Origin: Phytoactinopolyspora limicola
Lineage (GTDB): Bacteria > Actinomycetota > Actinomycetes > Jiangellales > Jiangellaceae
Reading direction: 5' to 3'
Assembly (NCBI RefSeq): GCF_011320225.1
Contig: NZ_JAAOEN010000016.1
Coordinates: 1-64,000 of the forward strand
Length of the DNA: 64,000 nucleotides
Of this stretch, positions 2,651-21,619 are shown one piece after another; the stretch's first letter is position 1, and the number at the start of each line of letters is the position of its first letter. Made by a program: the position numbers and the translations under genes. The notes below the pieces were generated by a model. It searched no databases. It was not told where the DNA came from and was given only the letters and a program-made list of their open reading frames with translations.

Positions 2651-4651
2651 ATGACGTTTGAAAGTAGGAAGCGTCGACGGCTGCTCGTCAGCAGCGTCGC
2701 CGCCGGGGCCATAGCGGCCCTGACGTCGACGACACTGGCGATGCCGGCGTTGGCGGACGAAGGAGACTACTCGCGCGCAGAGGCGCGATTCCTCTCCGGA
2801 GAGATCCTCGGAACCGATCTGGACCGGCTGGTAGAGCTAGCCGGCGTGGAGGTCGAGAACTTCGGCACCCCGGACCCGGTCACCGAGGCCAACCCTCTTG
2901 ACATCACCCTCCTCGACTCGATCAACATCGAGATCCCGGGGGGCCTCCAGCTGCCGTTGAGCGAGATCATCGAGCTCGGTGCGGTCAACCAGTGGGCCAC
3001 AGCCAAAGACAAGGGCACGTCGAGTGCGGCTACGGGTGCCGTAGCCGATAGCGGCGGCATCGGTACCGGTGTCGAGGCTGGATTCCCGGGCAACGCCAAC
3101 TTCAGCCTGGGCAACCTCCTCGGTGATCAGTTCGCCGACACCATCGCCAACGTCGAACTCGAGCTCGGCGCCATCTCGTCCGAGGCGCACCTGATCGGGC
3201 CGTCGGAGGTGGAGATCAGCTCGGACGGCGTCGGTGAGGGCTTCACCCTCAACCGCGACTACGAGATCGCCGGCGGGTTCCTCAAGATCGAGTTGCCGCT
3301 GCTGGCCGACCTGCTGCCGGACATCCTGGACACCGTCGGCGAGGTCGACGACCTGCTGAACAGCGTCCTGGGCGAGGAGAGCCTGCTCGCCGAGCTATTG
3401 GATGCGATCGACGGGTTGACCGGCCTGCTGGCCCTCGTCGGGGTCGAGCTTGACCTCAACGTGAGCGTGACCAGCGACATCCGGGGCGCGGTCGAGGAGA
3501 TCCTGGAGGCGCCGATCGGTGGCTCGGGTATCGAACTCGACCTCAACACGGGCACGCTGATCATCGACCTCAACGAGATCCTCGAGGGCGGGCTCAACGG
3601 CCAGCCTCCGAACACCGAACTGCTCAGCGCGGCCGTCATCGGCGGCCTGCTGGACAACCTGGGTGACCTCCTCTCGGACCTGCTCGGCGACATCGTCGAC
3701 ACCGTGAAGTCTGCCCTCGGTGCGGCTGAGGTCGACCTCAACCTGTTCATCAACGCCAACCCGCTGGGCTTGAACCTGGGCACGCTGGACCTCTCGCTGC
3801 TGGCCACCGTCACCGACCTGATCGAGGGCGACGCCGAGCTCGAGATCGAGACCACTGGTCCCGTTGGTGGCCTCCTCGGCACCGTTCTGGGTTCGCTGAC
3901 CAGCGACCTTCTGCCGCTGATCGGTGACCTGCTCGACGAGGTCGTCGCACTGGTGGATGGCCTCGGTGCCACGCTGGACGGCCTGCTGGCCGACCTGGGC
4001 CTGGACGGTCTGCTCGATGAGCTGGAGGGTGTGCTGTCGCAGCTCATCTCCATCAAGCTCAACTATCAGCCCGACCAGCCGATGAACTCCGCGCGGACTC
4101 AGATGCTGCGTAGTGTTCCGCTCCTCGGCGGCGCGGCGCAGGCCAACGCCGAGTCCGGTGGACCGTTCAGCGTGTCCGCGCTGTACATCGACGTCCTGCC
4201 GGCGAACAGCCTGGCCGTGGTCGACCTGGCTCGCTCCGAGGTTGGCCCCAACCGGGTGCAGGACGACACCGACGTGGATGTCGAGGTCGATGTTGACGTG
4301 GACGTGGATGCCGACGTCGATGCTGATGTTGACGCGGACGTGGATGCCGACGTCGATGCTGATGTTGACGCGGATGTCGATGCCGACGTCGATGCTGATG
4401 TTGACGCGGACGTGGATGCCGACGTCGATGCTGATGTTGACGCGGACGTGGATGCCGACGTCGATGCTGATGTTGACGCCGACGCCGACGCCGACGCGGA
4501 CGCCGACGCGGAGGCCGACGCGGACGGCGACAAGCTGCCCGACACCGGCTCGAACATCCTGTGGCTGCTGCTCGTGGTTGGCCTGCTGGCCGCCGGTGGT
4601 TACACGATGTATGTCTCCAGCCGCAACCGCCGGATGACGGCTCAGGGCTAG
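2651..4651 (+). CDS. LPDTG-anchored surface protein, choice-of-anchor-G-like, with Asp-rich stalk
   Basis: The 666-residue protein begins with a basic Sec signal peptide ending near ALADEG (residues 33-38). A long ectodomain (about 40-520) is rich in Leu, Asp and Gly with repeated LLGDLL/LLADL-like blocks, resembling actinobacterial choice-of-anchor G proteins. Residues about 535-620 are almost strictly alternating Asp with Val or Ala, giving extreme negative charge. The sorting signal LPDTG, a membrane segment and [11 protein letters not shown] follow. The ATG at 2651 has a strong GGGGAGAAGG ribosome binding site. The protein is exported, anchored to the wall and probably cation-binding through its stalk (inference). 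It is followed by a hairpin and the DUF5819/HTTM pair. It could be an adhesin or the substrate of that pair; function is unproven. Confidence 0.85.
4313..4480 (+). repeat. 36-bp tandem repeat encoding the DVDA stalk
   Basis: Four complete and one partial near-identical 36-bp units, each encoding three DVDA blocks, start at 4313, 4349, 4385, 4421 and 4457. The second unit differs by a few silent changes. The array is homogenised independently of the 24-bp array at 1-120. Confidence 0.9.
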
Positions 4652-16524: not shown

Positions 16525-17733
16525 ATGAGCGAGCGCAGCGTCTACCTGGACCACGCCGCGACCAGCCCTATCCTCCCCGAGGTGATCGAGGTCGTCACGG
16601 CGACGATGACCACCCTCGGCAACCCGTCGTCGCTGCATGCCGCGGGCCGGCAGGCGCGCAAACTGGTCGAGGAGTCTCGGGAGTCCGTGGCCGCCGCATT
16701 AGGGGCGCGGCCGGGCGAGGTCGTGTTCACGTCGGGCGGCACCGAGGCGGACAACCTCGCCGTAAAAGGCCTGTATTGGGCGCGGCGCGCGGCCGATCCG
16801 CGGCGGGTGCGCGTCCTGGCCTCGGCGATCGAACACCACGCCGTCCTCGACGCGGTGCAATGGCTGGGGCAGTCGCAAGGGGCAGAGATCGAATGGCTAC
16901 CCGTCGACGCACACGGCCGGCTGGACGTCGATGCCGCGTCCGCCGCGGTCAGGCGGGACCCCGCGTCGGTGGCGTTGATCACGGTGATGTGGGCGAACAA
17001 CGAGGTCGGCACGGTTCAGCCGGTGCGGGACGTCGTCGCACTGGCCGCCGAGTACGGCATTCCGGTGCACTCCGACGCCGTCCAGGCGGTGGGACAGGTC
17101 CCTGTCGACTTCGCCGCCAGCGGCCTCGACACCATGACCATCAGTGGGCACAAAGTGGGCGGCCCCATCGGTGTGGGAGCACTGCTGGTACGTCGCGAGG
17201 CCGAGTTGACGCCGGTACAGCATGGCGGGGGCCAGGAACGCGACGTCCGTTCCGGGACCCTCGACACACCGTCGTTCGCCGGGCTCGCCACCGCGGTGTC
17301 CACCGTCGTCAACCGTCTCGACGAGCACGCCGGGCACCTGCGTCAGCTGCGCAACGCCCTCGCCGACGGCGTTCACCGCGCCGTTCCCGACGCCGTGCGT
17401 AACGGTCACCCGGAGCTATCCCTGCCGAGTCTGGCGCATTTCTCGTTTCCGGGATGTGAAGGCGACTCGCTACTGTTGTTGCTGGACGCGGCCGGTATTC
17501 ATTGCTCCACCGGCAGCGCGTGTTCGGCGGGGGTAGCACAACCGTCACACGTGCTGCTGGCCATGGGTGTGAGCCCGGCCGTGGCCAGGGGTTCGCTACG
17601 TTTCTCATTGGGGCGTACATCCACACCGGCCGATGTCGACGCGTTACTCGACACGATCGGCCCGGCCGTGGAGCGGGCCCGTACCGCCGGGCTGGCCAGT
17701 GGTGGTGAGCCGGGCACCCGTTACCGAGAATGA
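16525..17733 (+). CDS. Cysteine desulfurase (IscS/NifS class)
   Basis: This PLP enzyme removes sulfur from cysteine as a protein persulfide. The 402-residue sequence shows YLDHAATSP at the N terminus, HHAVLDA, the PLP lysine K210 in SGHK, and the catalytic Cys333 in GSACSAG. Its 3' end overlaps the region upstream of mnmA (true mnmA start 11 bp later), and this pairing is conserved in actinobacteria: the desulfurase supplies sulfur for tRNA thiolation and possibly other pathways. No scaffold genes (iscU/sufU) are adjacent, which supports the tRNA role. Confidence 0.95.
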
Positions 17734-17744
17734 TGGAGTCACGA

Positions 17745-18845
17745 ATGCGAGTGTTGGCGGCGATGTCCGGCGGAGTCGACTCCGCCGTGGCGGCCGCGCG
17801 GATGGTCGAGGCCGGGCACGACGTCACCGGTGTCCACCTTGCCCTGTCGTCGAACCCCCAATCCTTTCGCTCCGGGGCGCGTGGCTGCTGCACGCTGGAA
17901 GACTCCCGTGATGCCCGGCGGGCGGCGGACGTGTTGGGGATCCCGTTCTACATCTGGGACCTGGCCGAGCGGTTCCGGGCCGACGTCGTCGACGACTTCG
18001 TCGCCGAGTACGCCGCTGGCCGGACCCCCAACCCGTGCCTACGCTGCAACGAGAAGATCAAGTTCGCGGCGGTGCTGGACCGAGCGCTGGCCCTCGGCTT
18101 CGACGCGGTGTGCACCGGGCACTACGCACGAATCGTCGACGGCCCGGGCGGACGAGAACTGCACCGTGCGGTGGATCCGGAGAAAGACCAGTCCTATGTC
18201 CTGGGTGTTCTCACCGCCGAGCAGCTGGCGCATGCCGAGTTCCCCTTGGGGAACAGCCCGAAATCGGCGGTCCGCGACGAGGCTGATCGGCGCGGGCTGG
18301 CGGTAGCGCGCAAACCAGACAGCCACGACATCTGTTTCATCGCCGACGGCGACACCGCAGGGTTCCTCCGCGGCCAGCTGGGCGAGGCCCCCGGTGAGGT
18401 GGTCGACACCTCCGGTGAGGTGCTCGGCGCACATGATGGCACGTACGCGTTCACCATCGGCCAACGTAAAGGCCTGCGCCTCGGACGTCCGGCGCCGGAC
18501 GGGAAACCTCGATACGTGCTCGACATCTCACCCGTCGACCGCCGAGTCACCGTCGGCGCCCGCGAAGACCTGGCCGTCGACGAGGTGGTCGGTGTCTCGC
18601 CACGCTGGCCGGGTGCTGCTCTTGCGGGTGTGGTGGAGTGTGCGGCGCAGTTCCGGGCGCACGGCGAGGCGGCGCCGGCCATCGCCGAGGTCGACGGCGA
18701 CGTGGTGCGGGTCCGGTTCGAGGCGCCGCAGGAGGGTGTTGCTCCGGGGCAAGCCGTGGTGCTGTACGACGGTGACCGGGTGATCGGATCCGCCACCATC
18801 GACCGCACCGGCACTCCCGCCCACGCCGCCGCCCCCTCCCCGTAA
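17745..18845 (+). CDS. mnmA: tRNA-specific 2-thiouridylase MnmA
   Basis: MnmA adenylates and thiolates U34 of tRNAs for Lys, Glu and Gln. The 366-residue protein has the PP-loop [11 protein letters not shown], the catalytic Cys pair ([12 protein letters not shown] and SHDICFI), TIGQRKGL and a C-terminal beta-barrel. ATG 17745 is preferred over ATG 17730 because GGAG lies 6 nt upstream. It follows the cysteine desulfurase that provides persulfide. Downstream is the gene-free repeat array at 18849-19342. Confidence 0.96.
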
Positions 18846-18848
18846 TAC

Positions 18849-19342
18849 TGCACCTGATCTCCGTTTGTGCACCTGATCGTTTCGGTGGGGACGATCAGGT
18901 GCGCTGAGCGCGGGCGACGGCCGACCGGGGTGCATCTGATCGCGTCTCGGCATGTGAACGTCGGCCGATCAGATGCATTTGTGCGCCGTTTGTGCTGCGT
19001 TGTGCATCTGATCGCCCAGCAGCTACATGCCGGACGCCAGAGAGTCTCCACCGCAACCTGAACGGTGCCGCCGCCGAGCGATGTGGAAGGGGCGCTGCCA
19101 GCCGAGGCGGCGCACAGCACGATCGCCTTAGAGCTTCCGGTGTGTCAGGGTTTGCGTCACCACGACGATCAGATGCACAAACGCGCCGTGGCGCACCGTT
19201 TATGCATCTGATCCACAGCTCGCCCATATCGTGAGATGAGGTCGGGTCCGCGATTGGGCCGTTGAGCAGGGTAAACGCCGTCCGTCGTGCACCTGATCGT
19301 CGCCACCGAAACGATCAGGTGACAAAACGGAGATCAGGTGCA
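18849..19342. repeat. Array of eleven TGCAYCTGATC motifs in inverted pairs
   Basis: This 494-bp stretch has no credible gene. The 11-mer TGCAYCTGATC, or its complement (two copies with a changed last base), occurs at 18849, 18868, 18893(-), 18931, 18967(-), 19003, 19167(-), 19203, 19288, 19313(-) and 19332(-). Neighbouring copies form hairpins. The outermost 54 bp at each end are near-perfect inverted repeats of each other (18849-18902 and 19288-19342), so the whole array looks like a terminally inverted element. Function is unknown; it separates mnmA from the convergent MMPL gene and may terminate both. Confidence 0.85.
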
Positions 19343-19354
19343 CAACGGGGTGGG

Positions 19355-21619
19355 TTAGCGGGATGGTGCGGGGTCTGGCGTGAGATCGGGTCGTGGAACG
19401 AACATCTCCGGGCGGCCCTCGACGTTGAGCTCAGGCATCCGCTGGTCCAGGCCCCGCGGTAGCCACCAGTTGGACCGGCCCAGGATGTGCATCACCGCCG
19501 GCACGAGCAGCATCCGCACCACGGTGGCGTCGATCAGGATCGCCGTGGCCATACCTATCCCGAATACCTTGATGAACACCTGATCGTTCGGGACGAACGC
19601 GGCAAAGACCACGATCATGATGGCGGCGGCCGCGGTGATCACCCGCCCCGTCTTGGCCAGCCCTTCGGTGATGGCGCGGCCGTTGTCTCGATGCCGGACC
19701 CATGCTTCTCGCATCCGGCTGATCAAGAACACCTCGTAGTCCATCGACAACCCGAAGAGGATGGCGAACATGATCACCGGTAGGAACGCCGCCATCGGGG
19801 TGGCGGTGTCGATCCCGATGAGCTGCCCAGCCCAGCCACCTTCGAGGAAGAACGCCACGACGCCGTAGGTTGCCGCCACCGAGATCAGGTTCATCACGGC
19901 AGCGGTGACCGCGATGACCACGCTCCGGAACGCGACCAGAAGGAGCAGCATCGATACCGCCACCACGCCGCCGATCAGGAAGGGGAGCCGGTCGGTGATG
20001 GAGGAGTTGATGTCGATCACGGTTGCCACCCGGCCGCCGACGTGTGCCGTGGTGTCCGTGCCGGCGACGGTGGCTGGAATGACGTCGTCGCGTATGACCC
20101 GAGTGAGGTCCTCGGTGGCCGCCTCTTGCGGGCCCGTCGTCGGGAACACGGTGATCAGCGCAGCGTCGCCGGCCGGTGCGAGCTGGGGCGGTGCCACGCC
20201 GGCCACCCCGTCCGTCGACATGATGCTGCTGTGCAGCTGCGGGACGGTGGTGCCATTGTCGCCCGCGGACAGGTCGGCTACCACCAGCAACGGACCGTTC
20301 GAGCCCGGGCCGAAGCCGTCGGCGAGCATGTCGTACGCCTGTCGGTTGGAGCTGCCTTCAGGATCGTTGCCGGCGTCCGGAAGCCCCAGGTGGGCGCCGA
20401 AGAATGGAATCGTGAGCAGGAGGAGCAGCGCGGTCGTGGCCACGGTCGCGACCACTCGGTAGCGCTGCACTAGTCGGGTCCACCGGGTCCAGCCGGGTGC
20501 CGGTGCGACGTGGCCGTCGGAGGTGAGCCGGATCGGGCGCCGTCGGCCCACCGGAAGCCGGAACCGGTCGATGCGGCCGCCGAAGTAGCCGAGCAAGGCG
20601 GGAAAGAGCGTGACGGCGGCGATGACGACGACCAACACGGCCACCATGGCCACGAGTGCGGCTCCGCTGATCACCGACAGGCCCATGGCGAACAGCCCGG
20701 CCATGCTGACCATGACGGTGCCGCCGGCCACCAATACCGCGCGTCCGGCCGTATCCAGGGTGGCGACGGTGGCCCGCTCCGGGTCGAGGCCCATCGCCCG
20801 CCATTCCCGGAACCGGGTCACCATGAGCAGGGCGTAGTCGATGCCGAGGGCGATTCCGAGCATCATGCCGAGGACGGGCGCGAAGTCCGGCACGTCGGTC
20901 AGCGCCGCTAGGAGGCCCACCAGGCTGACGCTCACCGCGAGCCCACTGAGCGCCATGATCAGCGGCAGCCCGGCGGCCACCACGGATCCGAACATGATCA
21001 GCAGGATGATGGCCGCGGCGGTGAGCCCAATCATCTCCGAGCCAACCTCTTGTTCCTGCGCGTTCTGAATCGTCTGGCCGCCTAGGGCGACGTCGAGGCC
21101 GTCCCGCTCGGCGGCTTCGGCCGCCGCGAGCAGCCGTTCGGTGTCCTCGACGGGCATGTCGTTCGGGTTGGTGACGTCGAGGTAGAGGCGGGCGACGGCA
21201 ATGTCACCGTCTGGCGAGACACCCCCCGGGCTGGTGTATGGGTCGCTGACCGATACCACACGCGGCAGGCCTTCGAGTTCACTCAGCAGCGTGGCGACGT
21301 CGCCCTGGACTTGCGCGTCGGTGACGTCGGGTGCGCTCACGACGACGTCGACCCGGTCGCCGGCCTGGGCGGGGAAGCGGTCGTCGAGGAGGTCCTGTGC
21401 CTGAGCGGAGTCGGAGCCGGGCACTCCCTGGTTGACGGAGAAGTCGGCACCGAAGGCCGCGGATAGGCCGACCGCGACGGCTGCGGCGGCCACCCAGGCC
21501 AGAATCATCCGCCCCCGGTTGCGGAACGCCACGCCGGCCAGCCGGCCGAGTGGCCCGGGTCGGGTGGGCACCGTGACCGGTCTCGGGTCACGGTCCACGG
21601 TGGACACCACGTCTGTCAT
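19355..21619 (-). CDS. MMPL family RND-type transporter
   Basis: The 754-residue membrane protein has the MMPL/RND layout: one N-terminal segment, a large extracellular loop starting FGADFSVNQGVPGSDSAQAQ, a cluster of segments with the family motif LGIALGIDYALLMVTRFREW, then a second loop and a second cluster with FGLSMDYEVFLISRMREAW. Such proteins use the proton gradient to export lipids or toxic compounds. It diverges from a NarL-type two-component pair, which probably controls it. The exported substrate cannot be inferred. Confidence 0.93.
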   Translation of the reverse strand: MTDVVSTVDRDPRPVTVPTRPGPLGRLAGVAFRNRGRMILAWVAAAAVAVGLSAAFGADFSVNQGVPGSDSAQAQDLLDDRFPAQAGDRVDVVVSAPDVTDAQVQGDVATLLSELEGLPRVVSVSDPYTSPGGVSPDGDIAVARLYLDVTNPNDMPVEDTERLLAAAEAAERDGLDVALGGQTIQNAQEQEVGSEMIGLTAAAIILLIMFGSVVAAGLPLIMALSGLAVSVSLVGLLAALTDVPDFAPVLGMMLGIALGIDYALLMVTRFREWRAMGLDPERATVATLDTAGRAVLVAGGTVMVSMAGLFAMGLSVISGAALVAMVAVLVVVIAAVTLFPALLGYFGGRIDRFRLPVGRRRPIRLTSDGHVAPAPGWTRWTRLVQRYRVVATVATTALLLLLTIPFFGAHLGLPDAGNDPEGSSNRQAYDMLADGFGPGSNGPLLVVADLSAGDNGTTVPQLHSSIMSTDGVAGVAPPQLAPAGDAALITVFPTTGPQEAATEDLTRVIRDDVIPATVAGTDTTAHVGGRVATVIDINSSITDRLPFLIGGVVAVSMLLLLVAFRSVVIAVTAAVMNLISVAATYGVVAFFLEGGWAGQLIGIDTATPMAAFLPVIMFAILFGLSMDYEVFLISRMREAWVRHRDNGRAITEGLAKTGRVITAAAAIMIVVFAAFVPNDQVFIKVFGIGMATAILIDATVVRMLLVPAVMHILGRSNWWLPRGLDQRMPELNVEGRPEMFVPRPDLTPDPAPSR

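Follow-up and report, generated by a model that had tools for sequence, protein, structure and literature searches.

The 494-bp stretch at 18849..19342 of the window – the first 64,000 nucleotides of a Phytoactinopolyspora limicola contig (NZ_JAAOEN010000016.1) – is one copy of a repeat family that has been amplified in this lineage and numbers roughly 90 related elements in the genome (43 paired elements plus 50 single units). It is a real repeat family of the Jiangellaceae, with a fixed geometry, and at least some of its elements have been copied whole. On balance, and with a confidence just on the positive side of even, we regard it as a MITE- or BIME-like non-autonomous mobile repeat located mostly at the 3′ ends of genes, whose ends would be protein-bound, phased units of six sites each.

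Architecture and spacing of the repeat family

The element consists of two inverted units of ~165 bp flanking a variable core, its sites having been located by motif matching. The left unit (18849..19013, + strand; match to unit model R1 at 18839-18980, +) carries six sites in the order ++-+-+: sites 1 (18849..18859) and 2 (18868..18878), both on the + strand and both reading TGCACCTGATC; site 3 (18893..18903, -), with one mismatch; and sites 4 (18931..18941, +), 5 (18967..18977, -) and 6 (19003..19013, +), all reading TGCATCTGATC. Beyond the core (19014..19166; compared with other cores as 19014-19177), the inverted right unit (19167..19342, -; R1 match at 19200-19352, -) has lost site 4 and retains five recognisable sites, namely site 6 (19167..19177, -), site 5 (19203..19213, +), site 3 (19288..19298, +), site 2 (19313..19323, -; two mismatches) and site 1 (19332..19342, -), which again reads TGCACCTGATC.

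The initial annotation, made from the sequence alone, had described eleven copies of TGCAYCTGATC in alternating orientation between near-perfect inverted ends. All eleven are there – nine exact, one with a single mismatch and one with two – although their orientation does not strictly alternate but runs ++-+-+ and then -++--. The ends are as described, 18849-18902 and 19289-19342 being 93% complementary over 54 nt, and this 54-bp inverted match is the outer portion of the two ~165-bp units facing each other in inverted orientation. The element starts with TG and finishes with CA. With up to one mismatch allowed, the motif has 14 matches in the 64-kb window, 10 of them inside the element, whereas 100 shuffled sequences averaged 2.33 matches and never exceeded 6. 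The annotators' view that this is not a CRISPR array was borne out by the presence of sites in both orientations and by the lack of equal direct repeats with spacers. They were also right to call the stretch gene-free: it is intergenic, lying between two convergent genes. One (17730..18845, +), which we, like the annotators, take to be mnmA, has its stop codon 3 bp before the element; the other (19355..21619, -), presumably encoding an MmpL/RND-type transporter to judge by its sequence, ends 12 bp past it.

The genome (G000; 6.59 Mb, 40 contigs) contains 521 exact copies of the 11-mer (259 forward and 262 reverse), compared with two matches to a control pattern read backwards and with 0-28 exact copies in each of the 98 other genomes covered by the relatives search. 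Frequent occurrence of the motif at random genome positions, which the annotators had named as grounds for dismissing the array, is not what the matches listed show: 98 of these 100 exact copies, all on contig C1, sit in arrays, the two solitary ones being at C1:56120 and C1:962397.

The basic building block of the arrays is the unit of ~165 bp with six sites, and the common plan places their starts at 0(+), 19(+), 44(-), 82 or 92(+), 118 or 128(-) and 154 or 165(+). In most arrays among 48 stretches fetched around matches, site 6 is followed by a variable core and then by a mirror-image unit; several arrays depart from the common plan (e.g. L055, L057, L060 and L066). The unit model R1, with 142 positions and built from 42 units, of which G004, a genome of the same genus, contributed five, gave at least 150 unit matches in the genome, every scored candidate having matched. 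Of the matches listed for this genome, 136 were analysed for pairing: 86 form 43 head-to-head pairs and 50 are single, including some unpaired units at contig starts that may be element halves. The 43 paired elements measure 293-1470 bp (median 553 bp), and in all 43 close pairs the neighbouring units are oriented + then -.

Cores are common within subfamilies and different between them; that of the window element matched none of the 28 others compared with it (threshold E 1e-3). Copying is evident from two elements, one in L062 on contig C1 and one in L080 on contig C2, which lie in opposite orientation and share 97.5% identity over 611 bp, the identity ending at C-rich and G-rich flanks. Within an element, the left and right ends have a median identity of 0.83, compared with 0.625 for the ends of different elements, and for 10 of 29 left ends the best match is the element's own right end; strongly diverged ends (identity 0.55-0.66) occur in nine of the 29 elements, including the window element at 0.625. 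This comparison excluded the L066 and L072 units and the G004 units, as well as L099 as a pair. Two further loci, L079 and L086, appear to be copies in opposite orientation, with cores that are 82% identical when inverted and with the left end of one element resembling the right end of the other.

The distances between sites take few values. Core to core, a + site is mostly followed by a - site at 22 or 32-34, a - site by a + site at 39-42 or 50-52, and a + site by another + site at 19; the pattern is alike in this and other genomes, with some outliers. The two + to - values correspond to different positions in the unit and are thus weak evidence for phasing. More telling is the spacer separating site 3 from site 4, measured in 69 units whose sites are intact (57 from G000, six from G004 and three each from G011 and G014). 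It falls into two length classes, 32-34 and 42-44 bp, both of which occur in each of the four genomes; no unit of the 69 has a spacer of 35-41 bp, although 20-60 bp was allowed. The scan took only units with intact sites, with sites 1 and 2 fixed at 11 bp between cores, and so missed the window's right unit, where site 4 is lost, and a unit next to icd in G011, where site 3 is altered; the latter has a spacer of 52 bp. Many of the G000 units are copies related to one another, and the 69 spacers therefore do not count as independent observations. The icd unit offers a comparison across genomes: its sites 3 and 4 stand 51 apart, core to core, in G004, 41 in G014 and 60 in G011, while the other four spacings are equal in all three. 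Spacer sequences look unrelated between genomes. Steps of about one helical turn suggest proteins held in register on double-stranded DNA, and to this extent the annotators' guess of a cluster of binding sites gains ground; the role of the putative protein might lie in partition or nucleoid organisation, as they suggested, or in transposition.

Gene-end placement and occurrence in relatives

Most of the repeats lie at 3′ gene ends, with gaps between convergent genes as the most favoured setting. Gene gaps with arrays comprised 30 convergent, 15 tandem and one divergent, as against 26, 173 and 43, respectively, for gaps without arrays in the same stretches (chi-square p 8e-17); the gaps were drawn from stretches selected for arrays, using a locus list with most overlaps removed, and genes in this and the stop-codon survey were called by a crude codon-usage script. 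Array-free convergent gaps have a median length of 44 bp. Two arrays were present in 23 convergent gaps. In 12 of these, the outermost core lies no more than 20 bp from the stop codon at either end of the gap, or overlaps the gene, the distances being measured from the 8-bp core and not from the element end. In the other 11, a stretch of host sequence exceeding 20 bp, and reaching as much as 1753 bp, is left on one side or both, which counts against the mobile-element reading. In 11 entries, corresponding to 10 distinct units because own-genome loci overlap and some units are counted twice, the TGA within the outermost CCTGATC-type core is itself the stop codon of the neighbouring gene.

Outside this genome the distribution is patchy within the Jiangellaceae. 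With E 0.01 as the threshold, the unit model detects units in 14 of the 22 family genomes; in a class-wide search at E 1e-4 with stricter filters, 13 of 246 genomes were positive, all 13 from the Jiangellaceae, and none of the 224 sampled genomes of the class from outside the family had a unit. Occurrence is uneven even within the genus, with up to 119 matches in G004, eight in G001 and none in G002 and G003 (in relatives, some palindromic arrays are counted twice, once per strand); likewise, G012 and G017, which share a genus with G014, have no unit detected by the model. Single units, and hence no inverted ends, predominate in those loci of relatives that we viewed, and the site there is frequently GTCACCTGATC. 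Plasmid and phage searches returned no match to the repeat pattern or sequence, and viral contigs none to the first pattern; wider contig collections gave one match in a genome contig and five in viral contigs, these being inverted pairs without an array, one of them with a third core. Those parts of the searched literature that were available contained no description of a TGCAYCTGATC repeat family.

Some positions are shared between genera. A six-site unit follows the icd stop codon in G004, G014 and G011, which represent three genera (site 3 being altered in G011); the unit is truncated in G001 and, by our reading, decayed in G000, and no unit was seen after icd in G002, G003 (which has a run of N at the gene end) or G021. 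After sdhB, arrays were seen in G000, G004, G010, G014, G015 and G018; in G011 an array match falls inside the sdhB match, which brings the tally to seven genomes and three genera. A single site is retained there in G017, while G001, G002, G003, G006, G008, G012, G016, G019, G020 and G021 have no array after the gene. In G013 a contig edge lies at sdhB, and another of its contigs, matching the neighbouring gene, starts with an array match; G005, G007 and G009, lacking an sdhB match, did not enter the comparison. Such shared positions may have been inherited and then lost repeatedly, or they may mark a favoured target. Arrays at the same place across genera look more like old inheritance or function than like random transposition, and they make a host role possible. 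The annotators had also proposed comparing the region downstream of mnmA in sister strains: no element was found there in four genomes of the same genus, but the next gene differs in these, so the comparison is no empty-site test.

Explanations and comparison with known repeats

The working part of the element, as we picture it, would be the ~165-bp unit, with its six 11-bp sites in the order ++-+-+ at fixed spacing. Several copies of one protein may bind these putative sites on double-stranded DNA and, aligned along the helix, form a nucleoprotein complex; two inverted units would then act as the ends of a transposable segment. The bound protein is probably the element's transposase or recombinase, which would be supplied from elsewhere in the genome, and most copies would have arisen through insertion and not through inheritance. 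The annotators' suggestion of a non-autonomous mobile element draws support from the near-identical pair of copies, the subfamilies with shared cores and the patchy presence; neither an enzyme nor a target duplication was found to complete it. By eye, no target-site duplication was visible in the element flanks viewed, nor at L062/L080, where C-rich and G-rich flanks could mask a short one. Recurring reading frames from most fetched array loci, leaving aside seven overlapping or odd own-genome loci, were grouped, and one example from each of the 25 largest groups was inspected by eye; none was recognised as a transposase or recombinase. The largest of these groups resemble the repeat itself and others resemble ABC and MmpL-type genes, and no parent autonomous element with the same ends was recognised in the array loci compared. 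A search for the IS21 family gave two matches, both below the cut-off and both at loci where no copy of the motif occurs even with one mismatch allowed.

The uneven ends of individual elements, the single units in relatives, the missing enzyme and target duplication, and the arrays shared after icd and sdhB all count against the mobile-element reading. Its main rival, to which we would give about one chance in four in plain terms, holds that the units are host sites for a protein that organises the chromosome or acts at gene ends (nucleoid-associated, insulating or assisting termination), that they are selected at certain genes and have multiplied in some lineages, and that any movement is incidental. 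Helical phasing would suit any cooperative DNA-binding protein, and both the recurrence of arrays after sdhB and icd and the strong preference for gene ends speak for such a role. An essential function is, however, hard to square with G002, G003, G012 and G017, which have no detected unit despite their close kinship to genomes that do, and the host-site account also has to accommodate elements with long cores that were copied whole. A third possibility, that the units work as RNA – as tandem hairpins of 3′ untranslated regions serving termination or mRNA stability – strikes us as improbable. The location at gene ends fits it, as does the fold of the window element (z -11.6 against 100 shuffles), although the latter largely restates the inverted repeat and is expected of any such sequence. 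Pairing at the stem flanks also exceeds expectation in 38 hairpins from other genomes (position 1, 33 paired versus 29.8 after shuffling, z 3.3; position 2, 35 versus 29.8, z 5.1; position 4, 22 versus 10.5, z 4.2), and in the alignment of 42 units five of the 19 predicted pairs show a two-sided change in at least one sequence. Against this, the covariation term over the same 42 units is -0.01, most pairs being invariant and hence silent. Among 175 hairpins of this genome, the Y position pairs in excess (125 versus 88.1, z 5.7), but the flank positions do not exceed z 2.2 and two lie below expectation, while 14 G004 hairpins show no pairing excess beyond z 1.8; all these z values are inflated by the relatedness of the hairpins. 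Template-switch repair of palindromes could likewise yield an excess of stem pairing. Across 18000-20400, Rfam models gave no match even with E values up to 1 admitted, and no terminator-like site (a stem-loop followed by a T run) was found in 18700-19500, a weak test given that 0.2 would be expected by chance. Nor does an RNA function offer a reason why spacers between hairpins should shift by 10-11 nt only. The annotators' guess of a structured RNA thus retains the stem-flank covariation in other genomes and little else.

Least probable of all, in our judgement, is that the units are REP-like palindromes mobilised in single-stranded form, the enzyme being one that differs from the known Y1 family. 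As in REP and BIME elements, copies are numerous, motifs are inverted, the location is at gene ends and a clear target duplication is lacking (cf. PMC2817692 and PMC3733652); the stem covariation in other genomes would agree with this reading too. Yet the Y1/HUH transposase (PF01797) has no match in this genome, five of 14 control genomes being positive in the same search, and a fixed multi-site geometry with helical steps would not be expected from hairpin recognition.

Among known repeats, REP and BIME sequences, with their TnpA-REP (RAYT) enzyme, likewise occur in large numbers between genes and at gene ends, with inverted motifs arranged in regular arrays; the present family differs in its helical spacing and in the absence of a Y1 transposase. 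Its ~165-bp six-site array contrasts with the REP palindrome, given as 20-40 bp in PMC3733652. By eye, in the unit alignment only, no GTAG/CGTC tag of the kind that ends a REP palindrome was noticed beside the sites. MITEs are similarly short, mostly gene-free, bounded by inverted ends, present at several places and divided into subfamilies; here, in contrast, no target duplication was seen and no parent found, the ends are six-site units of ~165 bp and relatives carry single units. The family is accordingly not shown to be a MITE, for want of a target duplication and a parent, and it fails the REP test of a Y1 enzyme. Transposon ends with several sites are well known from Tn7 (the TnsB sites), Mu and IS21. 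These resemble our units in the number of protein-binding sites per end – putative ones in our case – and in their TG...CA termini, but no such transposase is linked to the units, the search having covered IS21 only, with its matches below the cut-off. Correia, ERIC, BOX and RUP are also interspersed intergenic repeats confined to one bacterial group; none of them is known to have such a site array. What the family works most like is the end of a non-autonomous transposon, made of phased, putative binding sites.

A broader conjecture, which we hold only tentatively, would join inheritance and mobility: a Jiangellaceae DNA-binding protein might assemble in helical register on six-site arrays at gene ends, and an old array after core metabolic genes such as icd and sdhB might have turned into the end of a transposable element, or have originated as one, with the element multiplying in some species. 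If so, helical phasing would define a class of interspersed repeats distinct both from the hairpin-based REPs and from ordinary MITEs. Interspersed repeats at gene ends are best known from Gram-negative bacteria, where REP elements accompany a single-strand enzyme; that enzyme is missing here. A double-strand geometry that can be read from many copies in a cultured host would offer a direct route to the binding protein, and the family would let one ask how such repeats spread, why they sit at gene ends and whether the host makes any use of them.

Genes and other sequences within and beside the units

Likely genes lie inside two of 29 cores. The core of L084 holds one that is presumably CsbD-like. 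In L077 (~2918-3880) a protein of 310 aa is encoded between two units; it has no Pfam match at E 0.1, and its homologues adjoin sdhB in several relatives. We take this gene to be DUF559/AbiEi-like and considered it as a partner of the units, a link that is weak given the homologues in G002 and G009, which have no model-detected unit, and the missing Pfam match. Downstream of sdhB in the array-free genomes G012, G006, G021 and G016 (loci L172, L175, L177 and L179), a different palindrome, with a TTGATCTTGGAGTAA core, precedes a gene that we likewise assume to be AbiEi-like. For L099 we considered a single 7.35-kb transposon bounded by its left-hand and right-hand units, but these are two separate units, since the enclosed genes look core-like (ftsZ, wag31, gdhA and others, as we take them to be, with ileS and ftsQ outside).

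A second palindrome, around CTACCGCCAGATGGCGTTAA, recurs in cores or beside single units at L059, L071, L072, L090, L099, L103 and other loci, as does a repeated AGTAAGCCTCCTTGT-type motif at the same own-genome loci; CTACCGCCAGATGG is present in 19 of the fetched own-genome loci, some of which overlap. In L076, the segments between sites 5 and 6 of the left and right units look like reverse complements of each other, as though the left-hand one had flipped between its inverted sites. Finally, TGTCTCGGGACATCGCTGAC, which we take to be an IS481-like end, occurs at L051 (78-122), L196 (2286-2330) and L075 (77-96), within or beside units and near contig edges, so that insertion sequences may break both the arrays and the assembly at these places.
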